Shown here: one piece after another, positions 28,135 to 57,584 of the stretch
How positions within the stretch are numbered: position 1 is the first letter of the stretch
Layout of the letters: every line of letters starts with the position of its first letter
DNA from: Candidatus Methanomethylophilaceae archaeon
GTDB lineage: Archaea > Thermoplasmatota > Thermoplasmata > Methanomassiliicoccales > Methanomethylophilaceae
Length of the DNA: 64,000 nt
Assembly: GCA_944320485.1 (NCBI GenBank)
Contig: CALUHQ010000050.1
Coordinates: 1-64,000, forward strand
Direction: 5' to 3'
Made by a program: the position numbers and the translations under genes
Notes under the pieces: generated by a model
What the model saw: the letters and a program-made list of their open reading frames with translations, nothing else
What the model was told of the DNA's origin: nothing
The model's database searches: none

Positions 28135-28137
28135 TTC

Positions 28138-34514: not shown

Positions 34515-34802
34515 TCAATTCCCATCATCGATGAGATCACAACAAATTCTCAGATGTTTCGCTGTTTCAATCCCTTTGGGTGTCAGCCTGTACCATCTTC
34601 CCCGGGATCTCTCGACCTCGAAGGGTTCTATAATCCCTGCGTCCATCAGCAAGGTCACCTTGTCACGGATGATGTAATAGCTGTTGCTCAGGACAAGGAA
34701 GTCGCTCTCCCTGCGGTCCGACTCGGCCAGCATGACGATCATGCCTACGATGTGCCTCTCGGACAGCAGCTCGACGCCATTCATGGATGTGTGATATTCC
34801 AT
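34515..34802 (-). CDS. Winged-helix transcription regulator
   Basis: A 95-residue protein from ATG 34802 (MEYHTSMNGVELLSERHIVG). The order ERHIVGMIVMLAESDRRESD, SYYIIRDKVTLLMDAGIIEP, SRGRWYRLTPKGIETAKHL gives helix, recognition helix and wing, as in MarR/PadR-like or archaeal winged-helix proteins (L-T-P-K-G-x-E is typical). ATG is about 25 nt after a TATA-like ACATAAAAAC, hence leaderless. A repeated TGTGATnTnCCATGTG operator overlaps this promoter. It is divergent from the zinc-ribbon membrane gene at 34893. Confidence 0.75.
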   Translation of the reverse strand: MEYHTSMNGVELLSERHIVGMIVMLAESDRRESDFLVLSNSYYIIRDKVTLLMDAGIIEPFEVERSRGRWYRLTPKGIETAKHLRICCDLIDDGN

Positions 34803-34837
34803 GTGGAAAAATCCGTTTTTATGTGATGTGCCATGTG
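34790..34837. promoter_or_regulatory. Two direct TGTGATnTnCCATGTG operator-like sites
   Basis: TGTGATATTCCATGTG at 34790-34805 and TGTGATGTGCCATGTG at 34822-34837 are 16-bp direct repeats 32 bp apart (three helical turns). The first covers the start codon of the winged-helix gene, the second the region between the two divergent TATA boxes. Autorepression is the likely reading. Confidence 0.6.
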
Positions 34838-34892
34838 CATTTTGCCACATCTGATAAATAGCGCCTGGCACGATGCTCTTTTGAGGGAAAGC

Positions 34893-35633
34893 ATGGTGTT
34901 CTGCAACAAGTGTGGGAAAGATAACCCCGCCGAATCCGAGTTCTGCATCTTCTGCGGAGCCAAGATGGATCAGCCCGTTTCAATCGTAAGGATTTGCCAG
35001 AAGTGCGGATCCGAAAATCCAGATGAGGCGACATACTGCCTGAAATGCGGAAGCTCGTTGACCGTATATGGACCCGGAGAGGATGAGGTCATGTCAAAGC
35101 TGAGTCCTCTGGAACAGGCGACGACCAGGAACCTTACTAAGGAGAAGTGTCAGAGGTACCGTGCACCGGCGATTATTCTGAGCCTGATTTCGGGATTCAC
35201 TATACTGATAATGCTGTTTGCGGTTAATGTCGAACTTGTATACGGGCCAGGTGCAATGATAGAATTGAGTACAAATGAAACGCTGTACCATATTGTTTCA
35301 GAAATGGGTGCTCAATCTGTATTGTCGGAAAATATTTTGAGTATCCTCTTCTGGATGGCCGCATTGTTGGCTGTTGTTGGGTTGTTCATACCATTAGTAT
35401 CATTTTTCTCTGGTTTTATTGGTTTTTTCATGATGATGCTGATGACGAGCATTACCGTGGATGTGTCTATTCTAGATGTTAACGCGGAAGTACCCTTTGG
35501 ATTCCCCATAGCAGTCATGTTTATCGCAATGATCATCTCTGGGATTGCAGCAGGTTGTTCCAACTACTATGGTGTTCAATTTAGAACAGTAAAGGGGAAG
35601 GCGTGCATTCAAGAATACTGCCCGTTCTGCTGA
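34893..35633 (+). CDS. Zinc-ribbon multi-TM membrane protein
   Basis: A 246-residue protein from ATG 34893 after GAGGGAAAGC. Two zinc ribbons: VFCNKCGKDNPAESEFCIFC and ICQKCGSENPDEATYCLKCG (C-x-x-C pairs). Four hydrophobic helices follow (IILSLISGFTILIMLFAV; ILFWMAALLAVVGLFIPLV; FFSGFIGFFMMMLMTSI; IAVMFIAMIISGIAAGC). This zinc-ribbon plus membrane design is common in Thermoplasmata methanogens with no known role. The gene is more AT-rich than its surroundings and probably of separate origin. Confidence 0.75.
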   Translation: MVFCNKCGKDNPAESEFCIFCGAKMDQPVSIVRICQKCGSENPDEATYCLKCGSSLTVYGPGEDEVMSKLSPLEQATTRNLTKEKCQRYRAPAIILSLISGFTILIMLFAVNVELVYGPGAMIELSTNETLYHIVSEMGAQSVLSENILSILFWMAALLAVVGLFIPLVSFFSGFIGFFMMMLMTSITVDVSILDVNAEVPFGFPIAVMFIAMIISGIAAGCSNYYGVQFRTVKGKACIQEYCPFC

Positions 35634-35647
35634 TTCGAATGTAAATT

Positions 35648-35663
35648 GGGGGTTAAATCCCCC
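35648..35663. terminator. Hairpin GGGGG-TTAAAT-CCCCC between convergent genes
   Basis: A 5-bp perfect stem with loop TTAAAT lies between the ends of 34893-35633 (+) and 35673-37613 (-). It could end both transcripts. Confidence 0.5.
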
Positions 35664-35672
35664 ATAAACTGT

Positions 35673-39877: not shown

Positions 39878-39881
39878 GTTC

Positions 39882-42800: not shown

Positions 42801-43211
42801 TTCCAGATACTCTCCAGAGTCGGGATAATAGTCTGTCACATGCCTTCCACTGAGTTGACCCCATTCTGCATAGAATGAAGCATCACTGGTAACAGTGAAT
42901 TTGTATCCTGGGTCATAGGATGTTCCACTAGTTGACCCAAGATGCCAAGCCTTCAGGTAGTACCCATCACGTGTGAACATAGTGACGGGAAGTTCGATCG
43001 ACTGATCCTCATGAACCGTGTATGTCCTTGAGGAATCGCCGTCGGCGGTTCCTGAATTACCATAGAATGTTATCGTATGAGTCTCAGTCGTGTCGTATGT
43101 AGCATCAGACTGGTCGCCACCGATGTTGACGACCGCCATCGAACCCAGGATGAGGACGATGGCGAATATCGTCATCAATATATTGCAACTGTGTCCGCAT
43201 CTTTCCATCAT
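39882..43211 (-). CDS. InlB-repeat surface protein with bacterial-Ig (BIG2) domain
   Basis: A 1109-residue protein with ATG 43211 after GGGAGGTCAGAT. Signal/anchor: ILMTIFAIVLILGSMAVVNI. About ten InlB-type repeats are spread along the protein; the middle ITGSSVVSVGQSITIEATSY with TVTLIASSVDGSGYSESKTL is a BIG2-type Ig domain. The closing part FDGWMLDGKEFDFENTPITS is the usual last repeat. Anchor: VIWILVAICLILFIVILV then RR. Its stop is 4 bp before the next ATG in sequence; the start overlaps the stop of 43208-47344. Family role in bacteria: protein-protein or host binding. Confidence 0.8.
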   Translation of the reverse strand: MMERCGHSCNILMTIFAIVLILGSMAVVNIGGDQSDATYDTTETHTITFYGNSGTADGDSSRTYTVHEDQSIELPVTMFTRDGYYLKAWHLGSTSGTSYDPGYKFTVTSDASFYAEWGQLSGRHVTDYYPDSGEYLEFNLWDIANSEEGLTGQVTIVNMPDWMGWNESVNNSCLIYGNITQPGVYLVEWTMKWFTNPTTLWFVIVLPSAMDTECTVSFDLNGGSAASGSSLPSKSGPVGTTITLYDGDDVSYNGHTLLGWRISIDGQEATFPANGEYTMNIDRQNITATAQWLASSYAIVYNPLNAPGVEGVSASYGDVLTLKETPGEDVEIPEGYHFGGWVIRGNEDVVLAPGMGYRVTGQFYLGGYWVDNSAESYTVNFDANGGTPSLSVEVEAGDAVYLPQDGMERAGYTFAGWSTTKSGSDILDDETWIPESDGVTLYAQWVQNIFPVTDINITGSSVVSVGQSITIEATSYPSTADDRGVRFSLMDGTGSARISSQDTTSTGGYAVIIGLSPGTVTLIASSVDGSGYSESKTLTVLGETSTHTRTIIYDPNGGSWIGDAPNETVNTGTASSYTFTITTMKPVQTGYTFLGWAVEGSNVPQYGYQSNQLTELTVYEDVTTLHAIWEENINTFSLTYDANEGLWPDTYESTYTDSRGSDGNSYEFTVRSEQPVYLGYLFLGWSSEKITPGEGTVDDVEYEAGSKIDVSDSKTIYAVWGDNRCTYVLKFDANGGTWPNGEPSPLEELTAATYWTFTIPSDEDYIPTLAGRTFVGWSVNGSGIISEDDVVYSPGDIVVFYGTSGQTSEIILMAVWGDGKDSHTLTFDGNGGEGDVIEGVPDPKVEPTDSEGWSHFTLPSEEPTRVGADGTVYIFNGWDTDEKALNGGYDSSQAVSSANDFTLYAIWSVGGSMVSVTFFPNVSDTSVTEMPDNMMGQILEGEDSVEIQIPDTEPKRDGYNFIGWANDPGSDNVYCSPGQLIPVSEDLDLFAIWRAVGESTDTFDVVFNSNGGTPVTSQSIASGGHAERPEDPVREGYTFDGWMLDGKEFDFENTPITSDITLMAAWTDGSGGGQDGGDDDDDTGGGNDAVIWILVAICLILFIVILVRR

Positions 43212-46200
43212 ATCTGACCTCCCAGAACAAAGTAAGATACGACTGCCAGGATCGCTACGATGGCTGCAGGAACTAGTACGACAAAGGTACTGCTCGCGAC
43301 AGCGACGATGAAGAGAATCACAGCCAATACAGCCAGAACGATCCAGATGTACGACGTCCAGTCCTCCCCCTCATGCGAGGGATCGTCGGGACTCTGTCCG
43401 CCTGTGGAGATCCAGACGGCCTTGAGGGTCATGTCGCTGTTCACAGGGTTGGTGAAATCGTACTTGCTGCCGTCATCCGAGTACCATCCGCCGAAAGTGA
43501 ATCCGTCCCTGACGGGGGTCTCGGGCTCCGATACGGTACCTCCAGCGATGATCCACTGATCCTCGACATCGGTTCCTCCAGACGTGACGAACTCCACATG
43601 GTGCTCCCACACATCGGTCTCCATGACACGGATGGTGAACGTCGCCATGGTCGGACGGTAGTCGTCGCCATCAGTGACGGTGATGGTTAGCTCATAGGTG
43701 CCAGGTTCGAACGGGGTGCCACGGATTGTGTGCCCGTTCACGTTCAGCCAATCCGCGGCGGAACCGCGGATGGTCACCGAGAACACGTCGATGTTCGTGG
43801 TGACCTCGTAGGTATACTGCGTCCCGACATCGGTGCGGTCCGCAGGCTCGGATGTCAACTGGATGATAGTGTTGTCGATGAGGTGCCATACCGCGAACAG
43901 AGTCGCATCCCTGACTCCGGAGACGAAGATCTCGCCGGGCTGATACTCAACATCCCCTCCATAGGATGTAGACCAGCCAAGGAACTCGAATCCCTCCATC
44001 GTCGGGATCTCGGATGTTATCTGGAAGCTGTGGATCGTCCCATCGCCTATCTCGATGATGGTCTGAGGAGCGCCCGATGCGCCCTCGCCCACGTCGAACG
44101 ACAAGGTGAACACCGTGTCCTCGGACTGCCAGACAGCATAGAGGACGGTATCGGAGTCTATCACGGATATTACGTCACCCGGCTGGTACACAGCCTCAGA
44201 GGGGTCGTCCGCCGTCGCCCATCCCATGAACACGAAGCCATCCCTTACAGGCGGTTCGGAGGGTATCCCGAACTCGTAGCATCCGTCAGCGGAAGAACCG
44301 CTGACAGCATCGATCTCGGAACCGCCTTTGGTGTCGAAGGTCAGCGTGTACTCCACGAACCTGTCCTCCTCCATCCAGACAGCGTACAGTGTGGTGTTGA
44401 TCGCGTGGGATACGAACTCGTCTCCCCCGACGTACTCGACGGGGCCCCCGTCGTATGTCGCCCATCCTGTGAAGACATACCCCTCTCTGACCATGCCGTC
44501 GGACGACGGTATGATGAATTTGGCCTGTCCGTCCTGGGAAGGTCTGGTCATCTCCGACGGTGCGCCCGTCCCATCGCCAACGTCGAAATACAGATGGAAG
44601 TCGACGGATGCGGAATAGGGAAGCCACACGGCGTAGAGTGTGGTGCTGATCGATGTGGCGGTGTACCTCTGCCCAGGCTGGATCTCGGCGGAACCGCCCT
44701 CCGACACCGCCCATCCGAGGAAGAGGAAGCCGTCCAGCTCCGGAACTGTATCGGGTATCGTGAACTCGTAGGAGTCCAGAGAGTATCCTGTCAGGGGCGA
44801 CATCCCGCTGCCGTCTCCGGTGTCGAAGGACAGGGTGAACAGGGAGAACTCCTGCCACACGGCGTAGAGCGTGCTGTGCTGTACGGTAGCGACGAAGCTG
44901 TCGCCTGGATGGTATGTGACCGCACCCCCGTCGGAGGTGGACCACCCCAAGAACCCGAAGCCCTCCCTCTCTGGAATAGTGGACGGTATGGTGAACTCGT
45001 AAGTGTCCTTGACGGTCGTTCCCGTCTGATCCTGCGAGATCCATGTCCCGCCTCCGAGTTCGAAGGACAGTGTGAACGGCATAGGGAGCCTCTGCCATAC
45101 GGCGTAAAGATCCGTCACGGGTTTGAGCAACGTGATCTGTGAACCCGGCTGGTATGCGACGGTTGAGGAACCGTCCTCGACTGCCCATCCGAGGAAGAGG
45201 TGATACTCGTCCCACTCGGGCTGGACGGACGACACGGTGGCCGTATACGAGGATGAGACGGTCACGAAGGTGTCCACGTCCGGTCCGTCGATCCCCCCGT
45301 TCAGATCGTATCTGATTTCGAAGACGTTGCCCTCGATCTCCTGCCAGACAGCATAGAGAGTGGTCGTACCGGTCTGTTTGAACGTATAGGGCTCTCCGGG
45401 CATCACATTGGGAGTCTTGGACTCCGAACTGACATCGGACCATCCAAGGAAAATGTGGAACTCGTCCCATGTCGGTATGTCGCTGGAGATAGGAACGGAA
45501 TATGTGTCGTTGACGGTCTCATAGGTGTCACCCGTAGGGGCGCCATGTCCGCCGTTGGCATCGTAGGCCAAGGTGTAGTAGTGAATCTCCTGCCAGACGG
45601 CGAATATCTCGGTAGTGTCGACGTGGACGACGGTGAACTTATCGCCTGCGACCATTATGCCGTCGTCACTCGGTTGGGTATTCTGATTCGTGGACCAACC
45701 TACGAACCTGTACCCCTCACGGGTCGGTTCGGTTGACGAGATCGTGAACTCGTAGGTCGTCTGCGCCCCGGTGTTCGTGCCTGTGGCATCGCCGGGTCCG
45801 CCCTGACCCTCGTTAGGATTGTAATGAAGGGTGTAGTTGTTGATGGTGATCGTCCAGACATCGTAGAGATTGATCTCCTTAGTTCCCGCGTCAACGGAAA
45901 TCCTCTCTCCGGGCTCGTACATGGCGGATGTCGCACCAGACGTCTCAGACCATCCCAGGAAGGTATACCCGGAGCGATACGGGATCTCCTCGGAGACGTA
46001 GAACCAATCCGAACCTCCCTCGATGATCACTATGGAATCCTCGGTCGGACCCCCCGTTCCCAGCGTGACGTGGTAGTAAACGTTGGTCTCCAATCCCCAA
46101 ATCGCATAGTACGTGTACCCATCCCTGAGACTGGCATAGGCGCCCCCGTTGTACAGCGACCCGTTGCCGTCCTCGTCGGTGCACCATCCCATGAAGGCAT

Positions 46201-47344
46201 ATCCCGACCTCGAAGGTTCGCTGTTGGGGAGGTATCCGTAGCCGCTGGAACTGCCGGACACCTTGTAGATGTCGGACGGGCCACCGGAACCGCCTTTAGC
46301 ATCGAAGGAGATGTGGTTCACATAGAACGTCCTCTCGTCGTACTCGCCAGAGCCGTCGGTCGCACTCACACGGACGGTGAACGCCCCCGATCCGTTGCCT
46401 GTGGCGACGAACCTGCGCTCCGAATCGTTGGTGTACTCGTGGCTCTCCTCCATCGTCACGAGGTTGGAACCTTCGACGACGGACCATGAGAGCTCGGGGT
46501 TGTAGGCGTTGGTAGGGAACGCATCGGCGGTGATTATGAGGTCGTCACCGCTGGAGAACCCCTGATAGATGGCAATGGATGTCACGAGCCTCGCGGTGAC
46601 CGTCACCTCGAAGGTGGCGGAGGTGTTGCCGTCGGAGGACTCGCAGATGACGACGATCCTCCCAGGGTCGCTTCCCTGGATGACGCACGTGCCTCCTGTC
46701 GATGTGTCCGTGGTCCTGGTGATCTTCCCGTACTGCGAACCCGACTGGATGTCCCACTCCACATGACGGTCGTCAGCCGTCGTGGGAGATGTGGTGGCGG
46801 TTAGGGTGATCGTCCCGCCGGTCGTCACGCTGTCGGAGGATGACGAGGATCTTATGCTGATGCTCTGGACGAGACCCGCGTCGGGATCGACGGCACGGAT
46901 CACGAAGGACCTGTTCTCGTCAACCTCGTAGCTGCCACCAGACTGGACGTAATGGTAGCTGACCGTAATGGTACCCGCCTTGCTCACAGTCCCAGAGACT
47001 GAGGTGTCCCCAGACGTGCTGACGGACAGCCCGTACCCAGAAGTTACGGATCTGAAGTTGTATGTGTAGTTGCTCGATCCGTGGGACCAACTGTCAATGC
47101 ATCCAGTGATGCTGACCGATGCTCCCACACTGACGTAGACATCGCTCAGCACCGGCACGTTCGTACCGCTGATGTCGATGTCTATCGCATCGTAGGGGTC
47201 GGAACTACTGCCGCTGGGGTTCTCTCCCGTCCATGTGCCCGAGGCGTCCGACTCATCGGTCAGCGCGAAGCCGACCGACAGGGCGGATACGACGAACAGG
47301 AGGACAGCGACCATCGCAAAGAGCACCTTTCTGTGCTCATCCAC
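43208..47344 (-). CDS. 1378-residue InlB-repeat surface protein
   Basis: The start chosen is GTG 47344 after AAAGGGGGTATCTGTC, which gives a clean signal peptide (RKVLFAMVAVLLFVVSALSV, cleavage near ALTDESDA). TTG 47398 and ATG 47392 are in-frame alternatives. Residues about 180-290 are Ig-like (BIG2: TVTTGGTITLTATTSPTTAD). Eleven InlB-type repeats follow, for example FLGWSTSDGGAVTYHPGDSF..LYAVWQE. A He_PIG-like Ig domain (DWLNVNGHTIRGTPFEPGTY) comes after. The end has three hydrophobic stretches (WIVLAVLAVILFIVAVASST; FVVLVPAAIVAILAVVSYFV). First gene of the four-gene surface operon. Confidence 0.8.
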   Translation of the reverse strand: MDEHRKVLFAMVAVLLFVVSALSVGFALTDESDASGTWTGENPSGSSSDPYDAIDIDISGTNVPVLSDVYVSVGASVSITGCIDSWSHGSSNYTYNFRSVTSGYGLSVSTSGDTSVSGTVSKAGTITVSYHYVQSGGSYEVDENRSFVIRAVDPDAGLVQSISIRSSSSSDSVTTGGTITLTATTSPTTADDRHVEWDIQSGSQYGKITRTTDTSTGGTCVIQGSDPGRIVVICESSDGNTSATFEVTVTARLVTSIAIYQGFSSGDDLIITADAFPTNAYNPELSWSVVEGSNLVTMEESHEYTNDSERRFVATGNGSGAFTVRVSATDGSGEYDERTFYVNHISFDAKGGSGGPSDIYKVSGSSSGYGYLPNSEPSRSGYAFMGWCTDEDGNGSLYNGGAYASLRDGYTYYAIWGLETNVYYHVTLGTGGPTEDSIVIIEGGSDWFYVSEEIPYRSGYTFLGWSETSGATSAMYEPGERISVDAGTKEINLYDVWTITINNYTLHYNPNEGQGGPGDATGTNTGAQTTYEFTISSTEPTREGYRFVGWSTNQNTQPSDDGIMVAGDKFTVVHVDTTEIFAVWQEIHYYTLAYDANGGHGAPTGDTYETVNDTYSVPISSDIPTWDEFHIFLGWSDVSSESKTPNVMPGEPYTFKQTGTTTLYAVWQEIEGNVFEIRYDLNGGIDGPDVDTFVTVSSSYTATVSSVQPEWDEYHLFLGWAVEDGSSTVAYQPGSQITLLKPVTDLYAVWQRLPMPFTLSFELGGGTWISQDQTGTTVKDTYEFTIPSTIPEREGFGFLGWSTSDGGAVTYHPGDSFVATVQHSTLYAVWQEFSLFTLSFDTGDGSGMSPLTGYSLDSYEFTIPDTVPELDGFLFLGWAVSEGGSAEIQPGQRYTATSISTTLYAVWLPYSASVDFHLYFDVGDGTGAPSEMTRPSQDGQAKFIIPSSDGMVREGYVFTGWATYDGGPVEYVGGDEFVSHAINTTLYAVWMEEDRFVEYTLTFDTKGGSEIDAVSGSSADGCYEFGIPSEPPVRDGFVFMGWATADDPSEAVYQPGDVISVIDSDTVLYAVWQSEDTVFTLSFDVGEGASGAPQTIIEIGDGTIHSFQITSEIPTMEGFEFLGWSTSYGGDVEYQPGEIFVSGVRDATLFAVWHLIDNTIIQLTSEPADRTDVGTQYTYEVTTNIDVFSVTIRGSAADWLNVNGHTIRGTPFEPGTYELTITVTDGDDYRPTMATFTIRVMETDVWEHHVEFVTSGGTDVEDQWIIAGGTVSEPETPVRDGFTFGGWYSDDGSKYDFTNPVNSDMTLKAVWISTGGQSPDDPSHEGEDWTSYIWIVLAVLAVILFIVAVASSTFVVLVPAAIVAILAVVSYFVLGGQI

Positions 47345-47429
47345 GACAGATACCCCCTTTCCCCATCCCGACGATGCGGAATGCGTATTCATTCTCAATC
47401 TGGTGCATAATTACTCTCCTGCGCAGAAG

Positions 47430-47452
47430 CCGTCCAGACGCCGTCTGGACGG
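47430..47452. other. Perfect 10-bp-stem hairpin in the leader of the surface operon
   Basis: CCGTCCAGAC-GCC-GTCTGGACGG lies in the 47345-47504 leader. It is about 80 nt before the chosen GTG and about 55 nt after the predicted transcript start. A 10-bp perfect GC-rich stem is stable enough to affect translation or RNA life, or to be a protein-binding site. The 47453-47709 remainder holds the promoter and no gene. Confidence 0.6.
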
Positions 47453-47504
47453 TATGCGGACGATCGAGTGAGTGAAGGATTATGAACAGAGGAATGCCGA
47501 TGGA

Positions 47505-47542
47505 TGGAGTGATGCTACAAATCGAAAACACTTTTAAAGCGT
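47505..47542 (-). promoter_or_regulatory. Shared-type promoter of the surface operon
   Basis: GCTTTAAAAGTG (47530-47541) is followed on the minus strand by TTTTCGATTTGTAGCATCAC. Start near 47508. It is one of the clearest copies of the shared spacer. Confidence 0.65.
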
Positions 47543-47709
47543 TCAAAGCGGAACAGAACCCAGCAGAATGAGAGAACCGATCCGCATACATCCCCGGAAC
47601 AATTTCGTGACCGAACCTACGTGATTCGGAGAGATCTGACGAAAATCAAGAGAACAAAGGTGCGGAGGACCGCACTCTGACGGCCCTCCAAGACGTTTAG
47701 ATCGAGGTT

Positions 47710-48777
47710 TCAGAATGGGGCCCTGCCGTATACCATCGGGGCCCCCGTAACCGTACCCGAACCAATCGGGACCGTCGCGGAACCGTTGTATCCAGATCCG
47801 TCATAGATGACGTGTGTCCAGTTGCCGTCCCCGATATGATATGCGGAGCTCAGATGCCCCACATCGCTGTGCATGTTGTCGATAGCTGTCTCCACATAGG
47901 CGAAGCGTGTACCGTCGACATCGAAGACGGCGCTTCCGTCTGCTGACTCACCGTCAGCCAATGAGACTGCGGCCGACATGTGTCCCATGGTCGAGGACTC
48001 GAAGGCGACGAAACCCACGTCGAGACCCAGGCGGAGACCGAGGTTGACGAACAGCGTGGCGGTGTCCTCGCAGTCGCCGTATCCCGTGTAAAGGGTCTCC
48101 TCAGCCGACGCCCAGAACTCGGTCGTGCCATACTGCTCAGAATCCGACATGTACTGGATGATGTCTTGGACGAAGTACGCCAACACAGTAGCCCTCTGGA
48201 TGTTCGTGAGACCGTCCATGATGGGTTCCAGGTACTCAACGGCCTGATCGACGGCGGAGGAGTCGTCCAGCATGAACACCGGCATAGGATCGGCATAGGT
48301 GGCATGGCGGAGCCTGCCTTCATCCGTCACGGACGACCAGTAGTCCCCACTCCACATGTTGACCGAGAACACCATGTTCCTAGTCAGGCCCGAGACCGAA
48401 CCGTCCGAGGCGAACATCGGCATGCTCCAACCGTACTCGACGGACTTGGTGAAGCCCTCGCTGAACACCGCCTCGATAGATTCCACGGAATCGGTCGGGA
48501 AGGTCTCGATCATCCTGTCCGAGACCATCGTCCCGTCATCGAACCACCCGTAGAAGGACATCCCGTCCTCTGGGACGGCCCTGACGGTGAGCTCGGAGCC
48601 GTAGTCCGCGACGACCTCTACGTGTCCGAGGGAGATGTCGCTGGACTCCGGCGGGGTGACGTCGGTACCGGAAACGTCGATGCCCGATCCCCCCTCCTCA
48701 TCGAGATGGGATGCCACGGCGTAGACGCCGACGGCAACTAGGATGGTCGCGACGATGATCGCCAGCACTCTGTTCAC
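47710..48777 (-). CDS. Membrane-anchored transglutaminase-like protein
   Basis: A 355-residue protein starting at GTG 48777 behind GAGGTGATG. N-terminal anchor LAIIVATILVAVGVYAVA. An Ig-like or InlB-like unit (FYGWFDDGTMVSDRMIETFP) at about 75-95. Then FVQDIIQYMSDSEQY, TGYGDCEDTATLFVNLGLRL (Cys236) and TMGHMSAAVSL (His266) give the Cys-His core of transglutaminase-like enzymes; an Asp in FAYVETAIDNMHS may complete it. A paralogue lies at 54165-55748. These enzymes may crosslink or cut surface proteins. Last gene of the DGR operon. Confidence 0.75.
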   Translation of the reverse strand: MNRVLAIIVATILVAVGVYAVASHLDEEGGSGIDVSGTDVTPPESSDISLGHVEVVADYGSELTVRAVPEDGMSFYGWFDDGTMVSDRMIETFPTDSVESIEAVFSEGFTKSVEYGWSMPMFASDGSVSGLTRNMVFSVNMWSGDYWSSVTDEGRLRHATYADPMPVFMLDDSSAVDQAVEYLEPIMDGLTNIQRATVLAYFVQDIIQYMSDSEQYGTTEFWASAEETLYTGYGDCEDTATLFVNLGLRLGLDVGFVAFESSTMGHMSAAVSLADGESADGSAVFDVDGTRFAYVETAIDNMHSDVGHLSSAYHIGDGNWTHVIYDGSGYNGSATVPIGSGTVTGAPMVYGRAPF

Positions 48778-48788
48778 GTCCCATCACC

Positions 48789-50300
48789 TCAGAGCATGAT
48801 GTACGTCACAACCGCCGCCATGGCGCAGATAACCGCCAAGGCAACGAGAACATAGCTCACGGGTCTGACAGCGAACACTACCGCGAAAATCACTGCGAGA
48901 GCTCCGAAGAGGATCGGCAACCACCAGAGGTCGTTCCCATCATCGTCGCTAGGCTCATCTGGCTGTTCTGGGGCGGGCGGATCTGTCTCATAGGAAGAAC
49001 CTGTGGATGCGTCGTACATGATGTAGACCACGTTCTCCCCACTGGTGTTGTAGGCGCTGACCGTTATCAGGTAATCGGCCATGGCATCGTAGGTGTGTTC
49101 GGAACTGTAAGTGTTGGTGGAGGTGTCTCTCGTGGGAACATCGCTGATCTCGGATCCGTCACCCCAATCGAACCTGATGCCCTGGGCGTCCCCTATCAGG
49201 GCCGACACGTTGATGCTCAGGTTGTTCTCCGGGTCGGGCGTGACCGTGACGTCCTCCATGCTGGGGATCGACAGGTAGCTCATACCCGCCCACACACGGA
49301 GGGTGACAATCTTCGAGTCCGACACCTCTGTACCGTCGGCGGATGTGCCTGTGGCCGTGACGGAGAAGCTGTACTCCTTGTAATAGGGCCTGACGGGACG
49401 CTCGCCGAAATCGACTGCATCAGGGTCGAAGGTGACTGTGCCGTCGCCCTTGGAGGCGACGAGGCCGCTGACCGCGGGCACGACCTGGCCGATCTGGACA
49501 CCTGTCACGGAGACGAAATCCGCATCGTCGTAGTTGGTCGTCACGGTGTACGTGTTCCTGTCGACATCCTCGCATCCGACATAGGTCTCGATGACGTCGG
49601 GGGACGTTATCACGAGGTCCTGGCCGAACCCCACCGTGACGTGGACGGTGGCCGTCTCGTCTGCGAGGGAACTGCCCTCTGCGGTGGCGGAGTTGGTGGC
49701 GGTGATGTCGAAGCTCAGGCTGAACCCCTCGATGTCCTCGGGGATGTCCTGGGTGATCACGACGCGGTTGGTCTCCTGATCCCATCCGATGTAGTCGTTC
49801 TCGGGGATGTCGCAGACGACAGTGGTCTCGGTGCCTGCTGTGGCCTGGGAGATCGTCGGTGCGTACACCACCGTCCCTGCGGTCTGCCCGCCGATGACGC
49901 CTCTGCTGACGCTGCTCTCGTAGTATCCGTCTATCGTGACATGTCCGTATATCTTGAACTCGATGTTCTGTGACGCGGACTGAGTCAGATCAGAATCCAC
50001 GGTGGACGTCCATACAGCAGTGACGACGGCATGGAGGTCTCCGGAAGTGTCGATGCTGCTGAAAGATGCTCTCATGGTGCCTGTCTCCGCATCCCATACG
50101 ACACCCTCGGACCCTGAGACGGTGATCTCCGAATCCAGATTTGTCGTCGGCACGTAGATGCACGTCTGACCCGTCCTCATCTCTAGTGTGTAGATCTCGG
50201 AGTCATCAGCATCGACGCCCTGGCCGAGGACCACGAGTCCTGAGAACATGACAACCCCAATGACCAACGCGACCAAGGCCTTGTTCATACTCTCGTTCAT
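48789..50300 (-). CDS. Surface protein with Ig-like/PKD domains, multi-TM end
   Basis: A 503-residue protein with ATG 50300 after GGAGGAATAAG. Signal: LVALVIGVVMFSGLVVLGQG. Beta-rich body with IEFKIYGHVTIDGYYESSVS and IRFDWGDGSEISDVPTRDTS, the second a PKD-like domain (x-W/F-D-W-G-D-G). The end has LWWLPILFGALAVIFAVVFA and VLVALAVICAMAAVVTYIML. Paralogous in order and PKD motif to 55834-57510 (VVIEWGDGYRTIPMSNSASS), so the operon has two transglutaminase-like and two of these proteins. Confidence 0.75.
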   Translation of the reverse strand: MNESMNKALVALVIGVVMFSGLVVLGQGVDADDSEIYTLEMRTGQTCIYVPTTNLDSEITVSGSEGVVWDAETGTMRASFSSIDTSGDLHAVVTAVWTSTVDSDLTQSASQNIEFKIYGHVTIDGYYESSVSRGVIGGQTAGTVVYAPTISQATAGTETTVVCDIPENDYIGWDQETNRVVITQDIPEDIEGFSLSFDITATNSATAEGSSLADETATVHVTVGFGQDLVITSPDVIETYVGCEDVDRNTYTVTTNYDDADFVSVTGVQIGQVVPAVSGLVASKGDGTVTFDPDAVDFGERPVRPYYKEYSFSVTATGTSADGTEVSDSKIVTLRVWAGMSYLSIPSMEDVTVTPDPENNLSINVSALIGDAQGIRFDWGDGSEISDVPTRDTSTNTYSSEHTYDAMADYLITVSAYNTSGENVVYIMYDASTGSSYETDPPAPEQPDEPSDDDGNDLWWLPILFGALAVIFAVVFAVRPVSYVLVALAVICAMAAVVTYIML

Positions 50301-50321
50301 CTTATTCCTCCCGTCCTGGAA

Positions 50322-50340
50322 GGGGTCCCTGTGGGACCCC
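50322..50340. other. Intercistronic hairpin GGGGTCCC-TGT-GGGACCCC
   Basis: A perfect 8-bp stem lies between the end of the DGR target gene and the start of 48789-50300. On the minus strand it precedes the ribosome site of the next gene. It may act as a terminator, processing site or stability element. Confidence 0.5.
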
Positions 50341-50350
50341 GTTTAGGACG

Positions 50351-52678
50351 TCAGAGAACGCGCCTGAGCACGACCCCCGCAACGATTACAATCGCGATCG
50401 CCACAACAGCGTAGACCAGTATTCCGGGTCCGTCGTCCTCGTTTCCAGAGTCGTCGGTTCCGTCTGTGGTGTCAACGGTGTATGTGGAGACGGCATAGTC
50501 GCCGTCAGCATTGGTTACAGTCAAGGTGACGGTGTAGACCCCGGGTTCGGTGTACTCGTTGTAGGCGAGGACATCATCGGAGGTGTTCCCGTCGCCGAAG
50601 TCCCAATGGACCTGGTACCTTCCGTCACTGTCGGTTGCATCGAAGTAGTACAGCGAGCTGGTTCCAAGAACAGCGGTGATCTGGGCGTTGGCCGTGGGCA
50701 CCGAGGTGAACACCAGAGGGGGAACCCCCTTGGCGTACAGTGTCGTGTCCTCGTCAAGCGCCTGGGATGCGTCGTACTCGTTCACGAATCCCGAGTCATA
50801 GAACCACCCCTCGAAGACTCCCTCCACCATCAGCGGGGTGAACACGATACCCGAAGATCCTCCGGGGACCGTCAGTGTCGCGTAGTTCTGGCCTTCCACG
50901 ATGTAGGTGATGGTGATCATGGGCATCTGCCATGCGGAGTATGCCGTGACGTTGCCGCTCGGCGTGTACTGTGCCCCGACTGCATAAAAGACGCCGTCGA
51001 TGTACCATCCGGTATGGGTGTATCCGTTCACCGTACCCATACTGGGCAGAGTGTATGGGGTACCGTCAGGCTGTGCCCCAGAGGATGTCGCCAACTGATC
51101 CGAGGACTGACCGTAGTCGGTCAGCGCGCTGTGGTCGAATGTAATGGTGGAGTTATGTCTCCATACAGACGACACGGTCATGTTCTCCGTCGGCGTTACG
51201 GTATAGTTCACGGCCTGCTGTGATCCGTTCACCATCCATCCGATGTGGGTGAACTCCCCGACCGTTCCCAGGTTGGGGAGCTGGTAGCTCTCATCGGTCG
51301 GAACGAGAACGCTCGTGGCAAGGCCACTCGCGCTACCACCTGCGCCAGTAAGGGCACTGTGGTCAAAGGTTACAGTGTTGCCCGACGCCGGATCGGCGTC
51401 GAAAACAAAGGCCAGGCGCCCCCCAATGCTCGCGGTCGAGGTCGACAACGAACCGTAGGCGTACACACAGGACAACCCGTCGTCCAAGTCGTCGTACGAG
51501 CTACCGCCGACAAAGAGAACGCGGTTACTACTTGAACTGGTCCATATATAGTCATATAGTCCAGACGATGTCGATCCTCCGCTAGCTGTCGGCATACCCC
51601 AGAGTTCAGGGTGTGACGTACACGGTGATGATCCGTAACCAGAGCTGGGAAGAGATTGAGCGATGTAGGTCACATAGGTTCCCGAGGTGGCATCTGTAGG
51701 AGATGCGGACTGGTCGATGTAGTATCCGCTTCTTCCGTTGATGACGATTCCGTCCACAAAGTCGTATACGGATCCCCAGGCGTTCTCGATGAACACCTTG
51801 ACGGAGTCTGTTCCGTAAGTGGAGTTGGAGCTCGTTCCCTTGGTTCCAGCATAGGGTCCGGACTGGTCGAGCTCTCCGGTGGTGGTGTAGTAGGGGGTTC
51901 CGTCGTAGTAGCAGTCACCAAGTCCGGCGACTCCCTGTGAATCCCAGGATCCCATCACCGCTAGGGCGCAATATTTGTAGAGCTCCCACTGGTAAAAGTT
52001 CCACACCATTGCGTAGCCGTTCTGTCCCTCGCCATCGGTGTTGACAGTCTGATTGTTGGCGTAGTCACGGAAGGTAGCCCTGGTGGCACTGACCAACGGG
52101 TTTGAATCCGTGGTCGACATCAAAATCGTGGATCCGCCGACTGAAGCGGTGGATGCCTCATAGACTCCGATTCCGATGTATTCATAGACATGTCCGTTGA
52201 TTGTGTGTGCGTATGCCTCTCCGCCCGAATCGGGGTCGTTAGAGAGGACTAGACTGGTCCCGCTGGTCTTCCAGTAGACAGTCGGTAAGCACCACATTAC
52301 GTTGTAGTCCTCTCCGGCGATGCTGGTTCCATCGACCAGTTTCGTTAGGTCATCCGGATCCAGATGGCCTATCATCCTGTTGTTCTGTGCAGGATCGAAT
52401 GCCGCATAAAAGCTGTTGAACGGCCCGTAACCGTCCTCGTTGAATCCCCAGGAACCAGAGTTAGACCCGTTCAGGCTAGTCCACGTTCCCGTGGTCGAAC
52501 TGACGCCAATAGGTGATGTCCCCGATACGGTTCCTGTCGTCGAGATTGTGTAGGTGTAGATGTCGCCAGGTGCCGCGTCGGAGTCGTCATCAATCGCGAC
52601 AGGGGTGAACAACACAACGAGAGACAGAAGAACCGCGAAGGCTGCCATCATCCTACGACGGCTTTCTTTACTGTTCAT
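50351..52678 (-). CDS. DGR target: membrane-anchored protein with internal variable lectin-like domain
   Basis: A 775-residue protein. Signal/anchor MMAAFAVLLSLVVLFTPVAI. Residues about 40-430 resemble C-type-lectin/FGE-fold DGR targets: NGYAMVWNFYQWELYKYCAL, FIENAWGSVYDFVDGIVING, and a final RVLFVGG..DGLS..IGGRLAFV. The variable repeat covers residues about 385-425 (51404-51524) and closes the domain. After it come three InlB-like units (FTHIGWMVNGS, YTHTGWYIDGV, FEGWFYDSG), a PKD domain (YQVHWDFGDGNTSDDVLAYN) and an anchor (ILVYAVVAIAIVIVAGVVL). The variable face is thus displayed on a tethered stalk. ATG overlaps the RT stop. Probably the receptor-binding protein of the element. Confidence 0.9.
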   Translation of the reverse strand: MNSKESRRRMMAAFAVLLSLVVLFTPVAIDDDSDAAPGDIYTYTISTTGTVSGTSPIGVSSTTGTWTSLNGSNSGSWGFNEDGYGPFNSFYAAFDPAQNNRMIGHLDPDDLTKLVDGTSIAGEDYNVMWCLPTVYWKTSGTSLVLSNDPDSGGEAYAHTINGHVYEYIGIGVYEASTASVGGSTILMSTTDSNPLVSATRATFRDYANNQTVNTDGEGQNGYAMVWNFYQWELYKYCALAVMGSWDSQGVAGLGDCYYDGTPYYTTTGELDQSGPYAGTKGTSSNSTYGTDSVKVFIENAWGSVYDFVDGIVINGRSGYYIDQSASPTDATSGTYVTYIAQSLPSSGYGSSPCTSHPELWGMPTASGGSTSSGLYDYIWTSSSSNRVLFVGGSSYDDLDDGLSCVYAYGSLSTSTASIGGRLAFVFDADPASGNTVTFDHSALTGAGGSASGLATSVLVPTDESYQLPNLGTVGEFTHIGWMVNGSQQAVNYTVTPTENMTVSSVWRHNSTITFDHSALTDYGQSSDQLATSSGAQPDGTPYTLPSMGTVNGYTHTGWYIDGVFYAVGAQYTPSGNVTAYSAWQMPMITITYIVEGQNYATLTVPGGSSGIVFTPLMVEGVFEGWFYDSGFVNEYDASQALDEDTTLYAKGVPPLVFTSVPTANAQITAVLGTSSLYYFDATDSDGRYQVHWDFGDGNTSDDVLAYNEYTEPGVYTVTLTVTNADGDYAVSTYTVDTTDGTDDSGNEDDGPGILVYAVVAIAIVIVAGVVLRRVL
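51383..51401. other. Hairpin just past the variable repeat (retrohoming-type)
   Basis: CGACGCCG-GAT-CGGCGTCG is a perfect 8-bp stem with 3-nt loop, 2 bp past the coding-strand 3' end of the variable repeat. The template repeat has no such hairpin. In the Bordetella phage DGR a hairpin or cruciform at the same place promotes target recognition; the present role is inferred from position. Confidence 0.75.
51404..51524 (-). repeat. DGR variable repeat (VR), 121 bp
   Basis: It aligns without gaps to 53905-54025. It differs at 18 positions, all A in the coding-strand template (10 A-to-G, 5 A-to-T, 3 A-to-C). Fifteen residues differ, including all ten template Asn codons (e.g. N to S, Y, D, G, T). 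A GGGGGGCGCC block near its coding 3' end is the likely initiation-of-mutagenic-homing core. Confidence 0.97.
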
Positions 52679-53760
52679 GCATATACCTCGTAATTATCGA
52701 ACATGAACGCACGGAGTGAACGACATCCGACGATCCAACGGTCGTGATCCTCTATTGCCCACACCACGGGTCTGATGACCTTACAATACAGGTTGTAGGA
52801 ATCGCACCACTTGAGAACGCCATAATATGATGCGACCACTCCGCGATCATGCTTGTCGGGGGACTGCCCCGACTCCAGCTTCTTCATGATACTGGCCATC
52901 TCGCGCTTGATCCTGTACTTCGTCTTCTTCCTGACGAGAACATGGGTCTTGTAGATCCTGTATCCGAGAAAATCCACACCCTCAGTTCTAAGGTCTACGA
53001 TCTGCCAGTTCGGTTTGACGGAATAATCGAGCATTTCGAGCTGAGCGCTAAGCTCGATGAAGATCTTGTTCAGCCACTGCTTTGAATTGCCGAAAATGAA
53101 GTAATTGTCGGCATAACGGATGTAGCAGTGACAGTGAAGGACCTCCTTCATGTAATGATCGAGACGGTTGAGCATCAGGTTCAGGAACAGAGGCGATAGT
53201 CTGTTCCCGATGGCAATCCCGTCTCTGGGGTAGTCGTCAATGACCCTGTCGGAGTAGTTAAGAGTCCACTCATCCGCTATGTAGTCCCTTAGCGTGTCCT
53301 TCAGGATCTCTGTATTCGTAGATTCGTAGCATTTCTTAATGTCGGCGCTCAGACAGTAGATGATCTTCTCATGCTGGACATATTCCCAGGCCTGTGCCAG
53401 AGCTGAATGCGTACCGTGATTTACACGAGATGCATAACTCTGGTCGATCATCTTAGGATCCAGCTTACGTTCCAGGACCTGAGCGACACATTGATTGGCG
53501 ATTCTGTATGGATAGAGATCCTGATCCGCGATCTCGCGGACCTTTCCATGTTCGAGTCTGATGAAGAACGTATACTCGGAAGCTCTGAGGCTTTCAGTCT
53601 CGAAGAGCCACAGAAGTTCGTCCATATTCTTCTCATAATCGATCTCGAACCTGGAGACCTCTGCCTTGTCCCTCCTTGCCTGACAGGCCTTCTTGGCACC
53701 CAGTGCAAGGTTCTCGGGACTCAGAATCTCTTTCTTGACGTTCTTGATCTTCTTAGGCAT
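52675..53760 (-). CDS. DGR reverse transcriptase
   Basis: A 361-residue protein from ATG 53760 (MPKKIKNVKKEILSPENLAL); the frame is open upstream through the template repeat but that part is not RT-like. Motif A: CLSADIKKCYESTN with Asp140. Motif B: DGIAIGNRLSPLFLNLMLN (about 180-198), close to DGR RTs. Motif C: IRYADNYFIF (216-219 YADN) where Asn replaces the second Asp. Thumb: VDFLGYRIYK. Size is normal for DGR RTs (300-400). It copies the template RNA with errors at A and supplies cDNA for replacement of the variable repeat. The order template-RT-target is unusual. Stop overlaps the target ATG. Confidence 0.92.
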   Translation of the reverse strand: MPKKIKNVKKEILSPENLALGAKKACQARRDKAEVSRFEIDYEKNMDELLWLFETESLRASEYTFFIRLEHGKVREIADQDLYPYRIANQCVAQVLERKLDPKMIDQSYASRVNHGTHSALAQAWEYVQHEKIIYCLSADIKKCYESTNTEILKDTLRDYIADEWTLNYSDRVIDDYPRDGIAIGNRLSPLFLNLMLNRLDHYMKEVLHCHCYIRYADNYFIFGNSKQWLNKIFIELSAQLEMLDYSVKPNWQIVDLRTEGVDFLGYRIYKTHVLVRKKTKYRIKREMASIMKKLESGQSPDKHDRGVVASYYGVLKWCDSYNLYCKVIRPVVWAIEDHDRWIVGCRSLRAFMFDNYEVYA

Positions 53761-53904
53761 ACCATAGCCTTTGTTCTCTATCCGGACGTTCCACGATGGT
53801 ACTAGCCCAGATTGGGTCTTTTCTTGTATTTCGTCTCCAAGAGACGGGGCCCGAATCACAGGGATTGATGATGTATGAATCATCGCACTGGCGATGATAC
53901 TGAG

Positions 53905-54025
53905 AACAATTGTCAGGCGCCCCCCAATGTTCGTGTTCGAGTTCGACAACGAATTGTTGGCGTTCACATAGGACAATCCGTCGTTCAAGTCGTTGTTCGA
54001 GTTACCGCCGACATAGAGAACGCGG
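53905..54025 (-). repeat. DGR template repeat (TR), 121 bp
   Basis: Within the 53761-54164 gap between 54165-55748 and the RT. Coding strand is A-rich at variable sites (AAC/AAT codons if read as RVLYVGGNSNN..). About 30 adenines, 18 of which differ in the variable repeat; no difference at any C, G or T. It ends about 145 nt before the RT start. The remainder of the gap is a spacer open in the RT frame from 54165, which I treat as non-coding RNA. Confidence 0.97.
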
Positions 54026-54164
54026 AAAGCCCACGAGAGGGGACAGGTGTGAATGGGCCCATCCGTGGCCCCATCCATAGGGCCGTGGACAGTGAAGGGG
54101 CGATGCGTACCGCTGACGCTATCTTGTGCGTGCTGCTGGATAAGGTACGCATCGCAAAGGGTCA

Positions 54165-55748
54165 TCAGATGACCCTCCCGACTATGATTATGCCAAGGAT
54201 AATGGCCAACGCTCCTCCAACAATGTAGAGGACAGTGTGATCCTCTGATTCGCCGTTGGAATCTTCAGTGAAGGGAACATCCTCCGTCTCAACGGTCAAG
54301 GAGTCCCCTCCGTAGATCAGGTAGTGGTCGGAGCTCCCGTTCTCGACGGAAGCCTCCTCTACGATCAAGGTGACTGTCTGAACCGCGGTCTGTGTCGGTC
54401 CGACTGTCGATGTGGCAGTGAGAATCACCGTGTACGTCCCAGCCTTCGTAGCTGTTCCGCTGAGGGTCTGCATGGAATCGTCCCAAGTCAGGAAACCGCC
54501 GTTCTCGACCAGACCGTCGCCAGTGACGACGTACGTAGCGGGTAGCGTGGTCTCCGGGGTGTAGGCGAAGCCGTCGCCCACCCTCATGGGGACCGCGGGG
54601 GGATCGGAGTAGGAATCGCCGTAGACGATCCCGCCTGTCGATCTCTCGCCGTTCCCGATGCTGAGGGTGGACTCCGCGGTGAAGGTACCGTCGGAGTACA
54701 CGATGTGCGTCCATGTCCCATCGGTGATCAAATAGGAGTCACCGAGGATCCCGAACATCGGATGGTAGTTCTCGATGAGAGAGGGGTCCACGGCGGTCTC
54801 ACCGTAGGCGTATGTCACACCGTCCACGACGAAGGTCGCGACGTTCTCACCGGTCACGGCCTCGTCCTCCTCGAGGGCGACGGCGATGGACATGTGCCCG
54901 GTGCCGTCGGTCCCGTAGCGGTCCGAATCGAACGTGACGAACCCGCAGTCCACACCCATCGCGGATGCGATGGATACGAACAGGGTCGCGCCGTCCTCGC
55001 AGTCGCCATAGCCGAGGAACAACGATTCCATCGGCGTCGCCCAGAACTCCTCCTCGTCGTACAGGTTCCAGTCCGTCTCGTAATCTATCGCGTCCTGGAC
55101 GAATGCAAGGATGACCATCGACTTCTGAAGGTTGGTAAGACCCTCGGTGTAGGGCCGGAGCTGCTCCACGATGTCGGCGATGACGCCGTCATCGGTCAGC
55201 AGGGCCACGGGCGACGGGACCCTGACCTCCGAACCCCTCTGGATGTCAGATTCTAAAGAGTCGTACCAGTCGAAGGACGAGATCGAGACGTTCAGCCTCT
55301 CGGGTTCGTTCCCGAACGTGACGGAACCGTCTCCATTGAAGATTGGCATGTACCACTGGATCTCGATAGAGCGTGTCCCTCCCGAGTCGAAGTGCGCGGT
55401 GTAGTCCCTGTCCTCGTCGGCGGCGAACGTCATCGACGGGTTGTCGGTCACGAAGTTCCCTTCGCTGTCCGTCCAATAAAGGAACTGGAATCCCTCCCTG
55501 GCAACGGCACGGTAGGTAATCGTCGGGTTGTCGGGATCCGTGATGTCGTAGGACTCGGTCACGGGGATCAGGGAGCCCATGTCGATGTTGTCGACGAACG
55601 GACCGACCGAGATGGACCCGCCGTTGCCGGTGGTCCCATCGGGATCAGAACCGGTGTTCCCGTCCTCCGAGTCGAACATCCCGTAGGCGAGAACGGCGAT
55701 GACTGCCACCGCTATGACCGCAACCAACACGGTCTGAGGCTTGATCAT
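54165..55748 (-). CDS. Membrane-anchored transglutaminase-like protein
   Basis: A 527-residue protein from ATG 55748 after GGAGGTGATGAT. Anchor: VLVAVIAVAVIAVLAYGMF. An InlB-like FLYWTDSEGNFVTDNPSMTF unit. The enzyme core has FLGYGDCEDGATLFVSIASA (Cys250), GHMSIAVALEEDE (His285) and a possible Asp in TAVDPS (321). After it: a Pro/Gly spacer, an Ig-like domain (LSGTATKAGTYTVILTATST) and a C-terminal anchor (TVLYIVGGALAIILGIIIVG). Paralogue of 47710-48777 but with a second anchor. TGA overlaps the upstream edge of the template region. Confidence 0.75.
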   Translation of the reverse strand: MIKPQTVLVAVIAVAVIAVLAYGMFDSEDGNTGSDPDGTTGNGGSISVGPFVDNIDMGSLIPVTESYDITDPDNPTITYRAVAREGFQFLYWTDSEGNFVTDNPSMTFAADEDRDYTAHFDSGGTRSIEIQWYMPIFNGDGSVTFGNEPERLNVSISSFDWYDSLESDIQRGSEVRVPSPVALLTDDGVIADIVEQLRPYTEGLTNLQKSMVILAFVQDAIDYETDWNLYDEEEFWATPMESLFLGYGDCEDGATLFVSIASAMGVDCGFVTFDSDRYGTDGTGHMSIAVALEEDEAVTGENVATFVVDGVTYAYGETAVDPSLIENYHPMFGILGDSYLITDGTWTHIVYSDGTFTAESTLSIGNGERSTGGIVYGDSYSDPPAVPMRVGDGFAYTPETTLPATYVVTGDGLVENGGFLTWDDSMQTLSGTATKAGTYTVILTATSTVGPTQTAVQTVTLIVEEASVENGSSDHYLIYGGDSLTVETEDVPFTEDSNGESEDHTVLYIVGGALAIILGIIIVGRVI

Positions 55749-55790
55749 ATCATCACCTCCGAGTGATTGACATCGACCGACCGGGAAGGG

Positions 55791-55810
55791 AGGGTCGGGA
55801 ACCCGACCCT
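55791..55810. other. Intercistronic hairpin AGGGTCGGG-AA-CCCGACCCT
   Basis: A perfect 9-bp stem with a 2-nt loop lies between 55834-57510 and 54165-55748. Same style as the hairpins at 4353 and 50322. Confidence 0.55.
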
Positions 55811-55833
55811 GTTTCATCCGGTCGGATCGAAGA

Positions 55834-57510
55834 TCACTCCCCGTTTCCGAAAAGGTCTCCGATCGCGTCGCCGATGCCAGCGAAGTCGACATACACGAAC
55901 AGCAGGACGGCGAGGATCGCGCAGACGATGAGTCCAACGATCCAGACGGGGTTCTGAGGCATGATGTAGATGAATCCGATGACACAGAACACCGCGAGGG
56001 CTGCGAAGACGATGAAGAGCCATCCGTGCTCGTCGAAGAAGGACTGCTCTCCGTCGGCAGGCTGCTCGGGCTCGTCGGTTCCGGCTCCGGCCTGCTCCTC
56101 TCCGACGCTGTACATGACCTTGGAGGTTGTAGTTCCCTGGTCGTTGGTGGCGTAGACGGTGGCGAGGTAGGTTCCGGGTGCGGAGTAGGTGTGTGTACTG
56201 GAGTAGTTGGCGGAGGACGCAGAATTGGACATGGGGATTGTCCTGTAACCGTCTCCCCACTCGATCACGACAGAATCGGCTCCAGAGATGTATGTGGAGA
56301 GGAGAATCGTACTGGAATTGGTTCCGACAGGGGTAGCATCGATGGATGCGATGCTGGGGGTCGTGGTGAACTGGAAGGACTTGTAGACATGGACATAGAA
56401 ATCCATGGTAGCGGTGGAGGTCCCATCTCCCTCGCTTCCCTCGTTTTCAGTGATGGTTCCTGTCACAGAGACGGTGGCCTGGTAGGTCTTGCTGGTCTGA
56501 TCCTCATCGACGAGGCTTCCCATCGTAGCACCTGTAACCCCTGAGATGATTATATGATCAGCATTGCCAGAGTCCTGGGAGAGGATTGTGTCTGCCGAAG
56601 GTGTGAAGGTTACTACAGAATCCTGAGCGATTGTGTTATCATTGCTGTCATTGTCATAACTGACCTCAACATTGATTCCCTCGGCAAGCCAGGATGAAGA
56701 ATCCCCCTCATAGGTGTAGAAATGAGTCTGAGTGTTCTCGATCGCGATCTCATCATAGACATAAATCGTTGCAACGACCTGGGCGGTATCCTGGGTCGCA
56801 CTGTTGGTCAGAGTCATGGTGAGCGTGTAGGATCCAGCTTCAACATCGGCATCATCAAGTGTCTCGTTCGTGGAGACAGTGATGGTGTTGCTGGCCATTG
56901 TCACCTTGAAAGGAGTCCCGGAAACGCCAGTGGTTCCATCGGCCCCATTGACGAGAAGATTGATGTCTCCTGTACCAGTATAGTTGATTGTCAGAACCTG
57001 GGTATCAGCAGCCCATCCGTACAGTGCATGAGCAGTTATCGTAGGGCCTACAGACAATCCCTGTGTAATGACGAAATTGATCGTCTGTGTGGCGGTCTGA
57101 GTGATTGTGTTTCCATCATCGCTGGGATCGAGAGTCCAGGTAGCGGTCAGTGTACCAGTCCTTGTTGTTCCAGCACCAGTGGCGAATGTTCCTGAAAGCT
57201 GTCTCTCTTCTGAATCCCAAGCGATTCCATCCTGACCTGTCTCATCGGCTGCGTTTCCGGACCACACAATGTTGAGGGTACCTTCGGCATCATCGAGAGA
57301 TGTGGTTATGTTATCGTATACAAACTGCTGTCCGGTGGAGATGTCGAGGGTGAAGACCTGATCGACAGCGGTGCCGGACTGATTGAGACTGCTGTAGGAG
57401 GCAGCCTCGGATTCCTCCGTCGCGAATACAGCGGCGAAGGAACACAGGACAAGGGCCAGCACTGTGAAGATGGCGAGAGTCCTGTTCACGGCCGTTTTTG
57501 TTGCATTCAT
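55834..57510 (-). CDS. Surface protein with Ig-like/PKD domains, first gene of the DGR operon
   Basis: A 558-residue protein. ATG 57510 follows GAGGAG; a TTG three codons earlier is possible. Signal: LAIFTVLALVLCSFAAVFAT. Repeated beta domains (FVITQGLSVGPTITAHALYG; SYTLTMTLTNSATQDTAQVV), then PKD-like VVIEWGDGYRTIPM. End: LFIVFAALAVFCVIGFIYIM and VWIVGLIVCAILAVLLFVYV, then IGDLFGNGE. Paralogue of 48789-50300. Probably an abundant surface component since it is first in the operon. Confidence 0.75.
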   Translation of the reverse strand: MNATKTAVNRTLAIFTVLALVLCSFAAVFATEESEAASYSSLNQSGTAVDQVFTLDISTGQQFVYDNITTSLDDAEGTLNIVWSGNAADETGQDGIAWDSEERQLSGTFATGAGTTRTGTLTATWTLDPSDDGNTITQTATQTINFVITQGLSVGPTITAHALYGWAADTQVLTINYTGTGDINLLVNGADGTTGVSGTPFKVTMASNTITVSTNETLDDADVEAGSYTLTMTLTNSATQDTAQVVATIYVYDEIAIENTQTHFYTYEGDSSSWLAEGINVEVSYDNDSNDNTIAQDSVVTFTPSADTILSQDSGNADHIIISGVTGATMGSLVDEDQTSKTYQATVSVTGTITENEGSEGDGTSTATMDFYVHVYKSFQFTTTPSIASIDATPVGTNSSTILLSTYISGADSVVIEWGDGYRTIPMSNSASSANYSSTHTYSAPGTYLATVYATNDQGTTTSKVMYSVGEEQAGAGTDEPEQPADGEQSFFDEHGWLFIVFAALAVFCVIGFIYIMPQNPVWIVGLIVCAILAVLLFVYVDFAGIGDAIGDLFGNGE

Positions 57511-57584
57511 AAATTCCAACTCCTCACCTCGTTAGGTGGGCGAGTGGAATTTCGGATGAGTCGATTTAATCGGCAGAATACGGA

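Follow-up and report, generated by a model that had tools for sequence, protein, structure and literature searches.

The first 64,000 nucleotides of contig CALUHQ010000050.1 (assembly GCA_944320485.1, Candidatus Methanomethylophilaceae archaeon), hereafter the window, very probably carry a functional diversity-generating retroelement (DGR) lodged on a large integrative element of this methanogen. Its parts lie on the minus strand in the order template repeat (TR), reverse transcriptase (RT) and target gene, the last of which contains the variable repeat (VR). The original prediction, made from the sequence alone, had called this a complete DGR, and that claim is borne out by the adenine-specific TR/VR pair, the phylogeny of the RT, the structure matches of RT and target, and a hairpin directly after the VR.

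The 121-bp TR and VR align without gaps on the coding (minus) strand, and their predicted coordinates and counts proved exact when rechecked. All 18 differences fall on the 30 template adenines and none on the 91 C, G or T positions, a confinement with a hypergeometric chance probability of 6.8e-14. The substitutions are ten A to G, five A to T and three A to C; 16 of the 18 affect codon positions 1 or 2, and each of the ten Asn codons of the TR is altered in the VR, as had been predicted. The homology is in fact 3 bp longer (53902-54025 against 51401-51524), which adds a single C-to-T difference.

The RT matches RVT_1 and phrog_1423, and its stop codon overlaps the start of the target gene at 52675-52678. 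Among PDB sequences it matches the DGR RT of phage BPP-1 best, and its AlphaFold2 model, with a predicted local distance difference test (pLDDT) score of 90.9, has the same enzyme (8ub7, TM 0.86 by target) as top structure match, retron RTs being weaker matches. In an IQ-TREE phylogeny of 72 RTs, which included four archaeal group II intron-type RTs and left out retron RTs, the window RT falls within a clade (100/100) of eight Methanomethylophilaceae DGR RTs. The sister group of this clade (91/97) comprises other RTs of the same family, that of the Methanomassiliicoccales virus vir215 and those of further viral contigs. The tree placement that the original prediction had proposed as a check thus groups the enzyme with DGR RTs, distant from the group II intron type. 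Its motif 4, IGNRLSP, starts with the I/V/L-G type of DGR enzymes instead of Q-G.

The prediction had also placed an RT with A, B and C motifs between the two repeats; the position stands, but motif C reads YADN and not YxDD, which we treated as a property of the enzyme and not as a criterion for DGR membership. The last position of this motif is D in 169 of 173 aligned RTs. The others have YADN in the window and at loci L025 and L026, from three species in all, and YLDN at L037, whose long branch makes two origins of YxDN unsure. All four YxDN enzymes have Cys at the fourth position after the motif A aspartate (D+4), a residue found there in 2 of the 169 others. The RT of the YADN lineage is under purifying selection, with a ratio of nonsynonymous to synonymous substitution rates (dN/dS) of about 0.15-0.24. 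Locus L037 (G100:C1:133500-152500) is itself a second DGR of genome G100, with the target-TR-RT order and LGxxxSH as motif 4.

An order-wide survey of 147 genomes, 14 of which gave an RT match, yielded adenine-specific TR/VR pairs at 15 loci, the window included; the same pipeline recovers the TR/VR pairs of BPP-1 and vir215 as positive controls. The original prediction would have been contradicted by differences at non-adenine sites in related genomes, which instead proved likewise adenine-specific. The loci fall into two architectures, type I with the order TR-RT-target (eight loci, among them the window) and type II with the order target-TR-RT (seven loci), in which the VR of complete targets lies 3-7 residues short of the C terminus. 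The eight-member RT clade is that of the type I loci, and its virus-type sister DGRs have the order VR-TR-RT. At all bacterial and viral loci with a detected pair, VR and TR lie upstream of the RT. A search of IMG/VR with the window RT alone returned no close relatives. Phylum-wide counts of phrog_1423 matches were rejected as a measure of DGRs, the inspected loci outside the family having QGxxxSP RTs of the group II intron type.

Comparison of closely related loci points to homing itself. Loci L030 and L031 have a 97% identical background, the same RT protein over the compared stretch and an identical TR, yet 17 of 25 adenine sites and 0 of 87 other sites differ between the two VRs. Within the YADN lineage the VRs of L025 and L026 differ at 13 of 30 adenine sites against 1 of 99 others, and those of the window and L025 at 13 of 26 against 1 of 71. 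Where the TRs of the window and of L025 (genome G100) differ at non-adenine positions, the VR matches its own TR in 18 of 18 cases, and in 17 of 17 in the comparison with L026, the outcome to be expected if the TR was copied to the VR repeatedly once the species had separated. On these sequence comparisons, homing evidently continued in the YADN loci, and we infer that the YADN enzyme is active and the DGR currently at work.

The target appears to be a secreted and membrane-anchored protein: its InlB and PKD domains, hydrophobic N terminus and C-terminal transmembrane segment (the two segments identified by eye) point to display at the surface. A model of its ectodomain (residues 1-470) has TaqVP of Thermus aquaticus (5vf4, E 8.5e-9) as top Foldseek match, followed by Mtd variants (7.6e-3 and weaker) and formylglycine-generating enzyme, which suggests, at moderate model confidence, a C-type-lectin-type variable domain of the sort usual, if not obligatory, in DGRs. 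The ectodomain also matches phrog_5302, annotated 'tail protein'. A further 350 residues follow the VR. VRs are near-universally C-terminal, which has been ascribed to the freedom of their cis elements from coding constraint (Roux et al., PMC8144416).

Immediately after the VR, and within the coding sequence, lies a GC-rich hairpin, CGACGCCG-ATC-CGGCGTCG, lying within the codons for FDADPAS. A stem is present at the same offset in 8 of 8 type I targeted VRs, with 7-8 of 8 pairs formed although the sequences and the encoded residues differ, and 4 of the 8 stem pairs show compensatory changes. Three untargeted homologous domains lack such a stem and reach only 5, 5 and 4 pairs; these are two additional domain copies at locus L029, whose differences from the TR are not adenine-biased, and the homologue in genome G098. 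Among 500 shuffles none attained the observed paired fraction and one the covariation score, while sampling of synonymous codons for the same residues gave P values of 0.012-0.038 per locus, which are not simply to be multiplied as the loci are related. The conservation suggests that the hairpin is likely a homing signal. Locus L029 (G093:C1, 10345-19501) encodes a target of more than 3000 residues with three tandem variable-type ectodomains, of which only the first matches the TR with adenine bias, and its RT has an in-frame TGA.

Together these features suggest how the element may work. The DGR RT would copy into cDNA an RNA that contains the TR and whose noncoding spacer leads into the RT gene, inserting wrong bases at template adenines. 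The mutated cDNA would then take the place of the VR in the neighbouring target gene, at a site marked by the hairpin 3' of the VR. The outcome would be a set of surface-anchored C-type-lectin-like proteins varying mainly at ten Asn-templated residues, whose probable role is to bind partners, hosts, viruses or particles. The type I cassette with its mid-protein VR is probably a descendant of the tail-protein DGRs found in viruses of Methanomassiliicoccales, or else has a common ancestor with them; the VR-TR-RT order would have been rearranged, and the variable domain joined to a body that is secreted and anchored in the membrane.

Table 1. Features of the DGR and of the element that carries it (window coordinates)
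Feature	Position	Strand	Basis or remark
Tyrosine recombinase (integrase), contig left end	3..1076	-	phrog_1 integrase 3.6e-14; Pfam Phage_integrase below cut-off
Zot-like ATPase, backbone gene	18515..20311	-	conserved in related elements
Cluster of large secreted-looking InlB-repeat/PKD/transglutaminase-domain proteins, DGR inside	27465..57519	-	domain matches
Target protein, 775 aa	50351..52678	-	signal-like N terminus, ectodomain resembling DGR variable proteins that holds the VR, Listeria-Bacteroides repeats, PKD domain and a transmembrane segment at the C terminus
Hairpin directly after VR, in coding sequence	51383..51401	-	proposed retrohoming cis element
VR, mid-protein in target gene, 121 bp	51404..51524	-	same frame as the Asn-rich frame of the TR
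DGR RT, 361 aa	52675..53760	-	phrog_1423 2.3e-84; tree; structure match to BPP-1 RT 8ub7
RT motif C, codons TAT GCC GAC AAT	53104..53115	-	YADN, not YxDD; read from sequence
TR-to-RT spacer	53761..53904	-	conserved between species, no third-codon-position bias
TR, 121 bp	53905..54025	-	18/18 differences at template A; direct repeat D1; homology to VR reaches 53902

Several observations weigh against a functional DGR of this kind. One is YADN in place of the canonical YxDD, both aspartates of motif C having been 100% conserved in an earlier survey of DGRs; motif 4 ends in SP and not in SQ, the ending of 90% of DGRs, SP being among the known exceptions (PMC3521204). The accessory protein bAvd (PF22296) is absent from the window's own genome and its relatives, in a search in which the BPP-1 control was positive at 2.2e-37; PF05635, tried as an Avd surrogate, gave no match, but the control was silent too. 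The 3-nt loop of the hairpin is unlike the GRNA tetraloop of phages, and an 8-bp inverted repeat after the window TR is not conserved in the relatives. The ectodomain model reaches a pLDDT of 77, with low TM-scores (0.39-0.48) against TaqVP.

The altered motif C raises the possibility that the locus is an inactive relic, the D-to-N change having killed the RT and left the VR as the frozen product of past homing. That YADN occurs at all three loci of the lineage would agree with this, and the in-frame stop in the RT of G093 (L029) indicates that such loci do decay. A dead enzyme is nevertheless hard to reconcile with a motif common to three species under purifying selection, with VRs that after the species split diverged at adenine sites while tracking their own TRs elsewhere, and with a retained hairpin. 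The locus with the RT stop, unlike the window, has 6 of its 28 differences at non-adenine positions, and we regard the relic explanation as unlikely. It is conceivable instead that the YADN protein serves as a non-catalytic partner while another, canonical RT acts on the TR in trans, as genome G099 also has a YMDD DGR RT (L020/L035). However, the YADN gene is the sole RVT_1 match in the window's own genome, for which the assembly is 88% complete. In G100 the second DGR RT has YLDN, and the two types stand far from each other in both RT and TR, which renders action in trans very unlikely.

The kinship with tail proteins, seen in the phrog_5302 match, in 36% identity to the tail protein of a Methanomassiliicoccales virus and in the virus-type sister DGRs, could alternatively point to a provirus whose virion receptor-binding protein is the target. 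This seems improbable to us, as the target has a signal-like N terminus, InlB/PKD repeats and a transmembrane segment at its C terminus, and its neighbours are similar surface-type proteins; no capsid, terminase or tail gene was found among the contig proteins scanned, which did not include every gene. Chance, or an ordinary duplication with drift, had been dismissed in the original prediction, and is refuted by the 18 of 18 differences at adenines (P about 7e-14) and by the same pattern at 14 other loci. We lean, if not strongly, towards a lineage of gut-methanogen DGRs akin to the tail-protein DGRs of viruses, which would work with a YADN RT bearing Cys at motif A D+4 and with a hairpin inside the open reading frame (ORF) that frees the VR from the C terminus.

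Among known systems, the DGR of BPP-1 (mtd/avd/TR/brt) resembles that of the window in its adenine-specific TR/VR pair, in its homologous RT, in having Mtd among the structure matches of the target, and in an 8-bp GC-rich hairpin just after the VR that is needed for homing. It differs in its VR-avd-TR-RT order, against TR-RT-target without bAvd in the window, and in its RT motifs, which are YMDD and GxxxSQ against YADN and GxxxSP. Its target is a tail fibre with a C-terminal VR and a hairpin at the very gene end, whereas that of the window is an apparently membrane-anchored protein with a mid-protein VR and a hairpin deep in the coding sequence. Virus vir215 (NC_092586) has, in addition to the tail protein 36% identical to the target ectodomain, an RT 34% identical to that of the window, in the sister clade, and an A-only TR/VR pair (15/15), but its order is VR-TR-RT and its target is the tail protein of a Caudoviricetes virus. 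TaqVP, the best structure match of the ectodomain, has 14% sequence identity and a low TM-score to it, and the InlB/PKD/transmembrane body lies outside the match. Archaeal DGRs of DPANN and of a virus of anaerobic methanotrophic (ANME) archaea have targets with the C-type-lectin (CLec) fold (PMC4372165, PMC5006420), and archaeal clade-5 targets are reported to lack recognizable transmembrane or other domains (PMC8144416). The DPANN and ANME-virus systems, compared here by literature only, belong to other lineages; the window target has InlB and PKD domains and a transmembrane segment.

DGRs as a kind are known, and the deposited vir215, a virus of the same host order, has an RT and a tail protein with a TR/VR pair. 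As far as the literature consulted shows, three things are new: the type I clade, whose target appears to be anchored in the membrane and has its VR in mid-protein; the in-frame hairpin; and the YADN RT. A literature search for DGRs in Methanomassiliicoccales, a partial check of priority, met the two terms only separately. The type I lineage offers natural counterexamples to the published explanation of C-terminal VRs, which comes from a large survey (PMC8144416), as the stem sequence, the codons and the protein vary while the hairpin stays, and the coding-constraint explanation thereby becomes testable by synonymous mutation. A conserved YADN RT in evidently homing loci questions how strictly YxDD is needed and could inform the study of DGR fidelity. 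The findings also suggest that gut methanogens themselves diversify membrane-anchored surface proteins, beyond the tails diversified by their viruses.

The TR lies inside an ORF that is open into the RT (52675-54165), as it is in two relatives. We considered that the TR might be translated as part of an RT fusion, and rejected this: although the ORF is open in three species, there is no sign of selection as protein because its parts outside the TR, the pre-TR segment and the spacer, have no third-codon-position bias. The spacer is probably part of the template RNA, for which an Rfam search gave no match. An inverted repeat, AGGGTCATC/GATGACCCT, at window positions 54158-54176 bridges the upstream gene's end and the beginning of this ORF, and is also present at L025 and L026.

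The predicted Methanomassiliicoccales-like host agrees with the same-genus relatives, which are Candidatus Methanomethylophilaceae of that order. The predicted mobile element is corroborated by the integrase at the left end of the 88-kb contig, by a fragment of a host purine-synthesis (GATase_5) gene at the right end and by synteny with G100:C2 78.8-141.7 kb. The latter is a 63-kb element in a genome of the same genus; a 33-bp direct repeat bounds it, with the left copy overlapping the 3' end of tRNA-Leu(GAG). A relative of this element in genome G098, 144 kb long, has a repeat of the same kind. No attachment-site repeat was found within the window contig, the left end of the element lying off it. 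A joined-flank search for an empty tRNA-Leu site found the tRNA side in most of the genus and a strongly diverged right flank. The G098 element also encodes a target homologue (G098:C5:190284-192155), whose VR-like region is not followed by a hairpin; no RT occurs in that genome assembly, and this RT-less relative suggests that the cassette is optional cargo of the element family. Elsewhere on the contig, a C-5 cytosine methyltransferase (L023:14975-16651, contig 78975-80651) is interrupted by an intein-like Hint/splicing region, and the element carries adjacent PAPS-reductase-like and radical-SAM-like proteins (L023:3517-4479 and L023:2241-3140).

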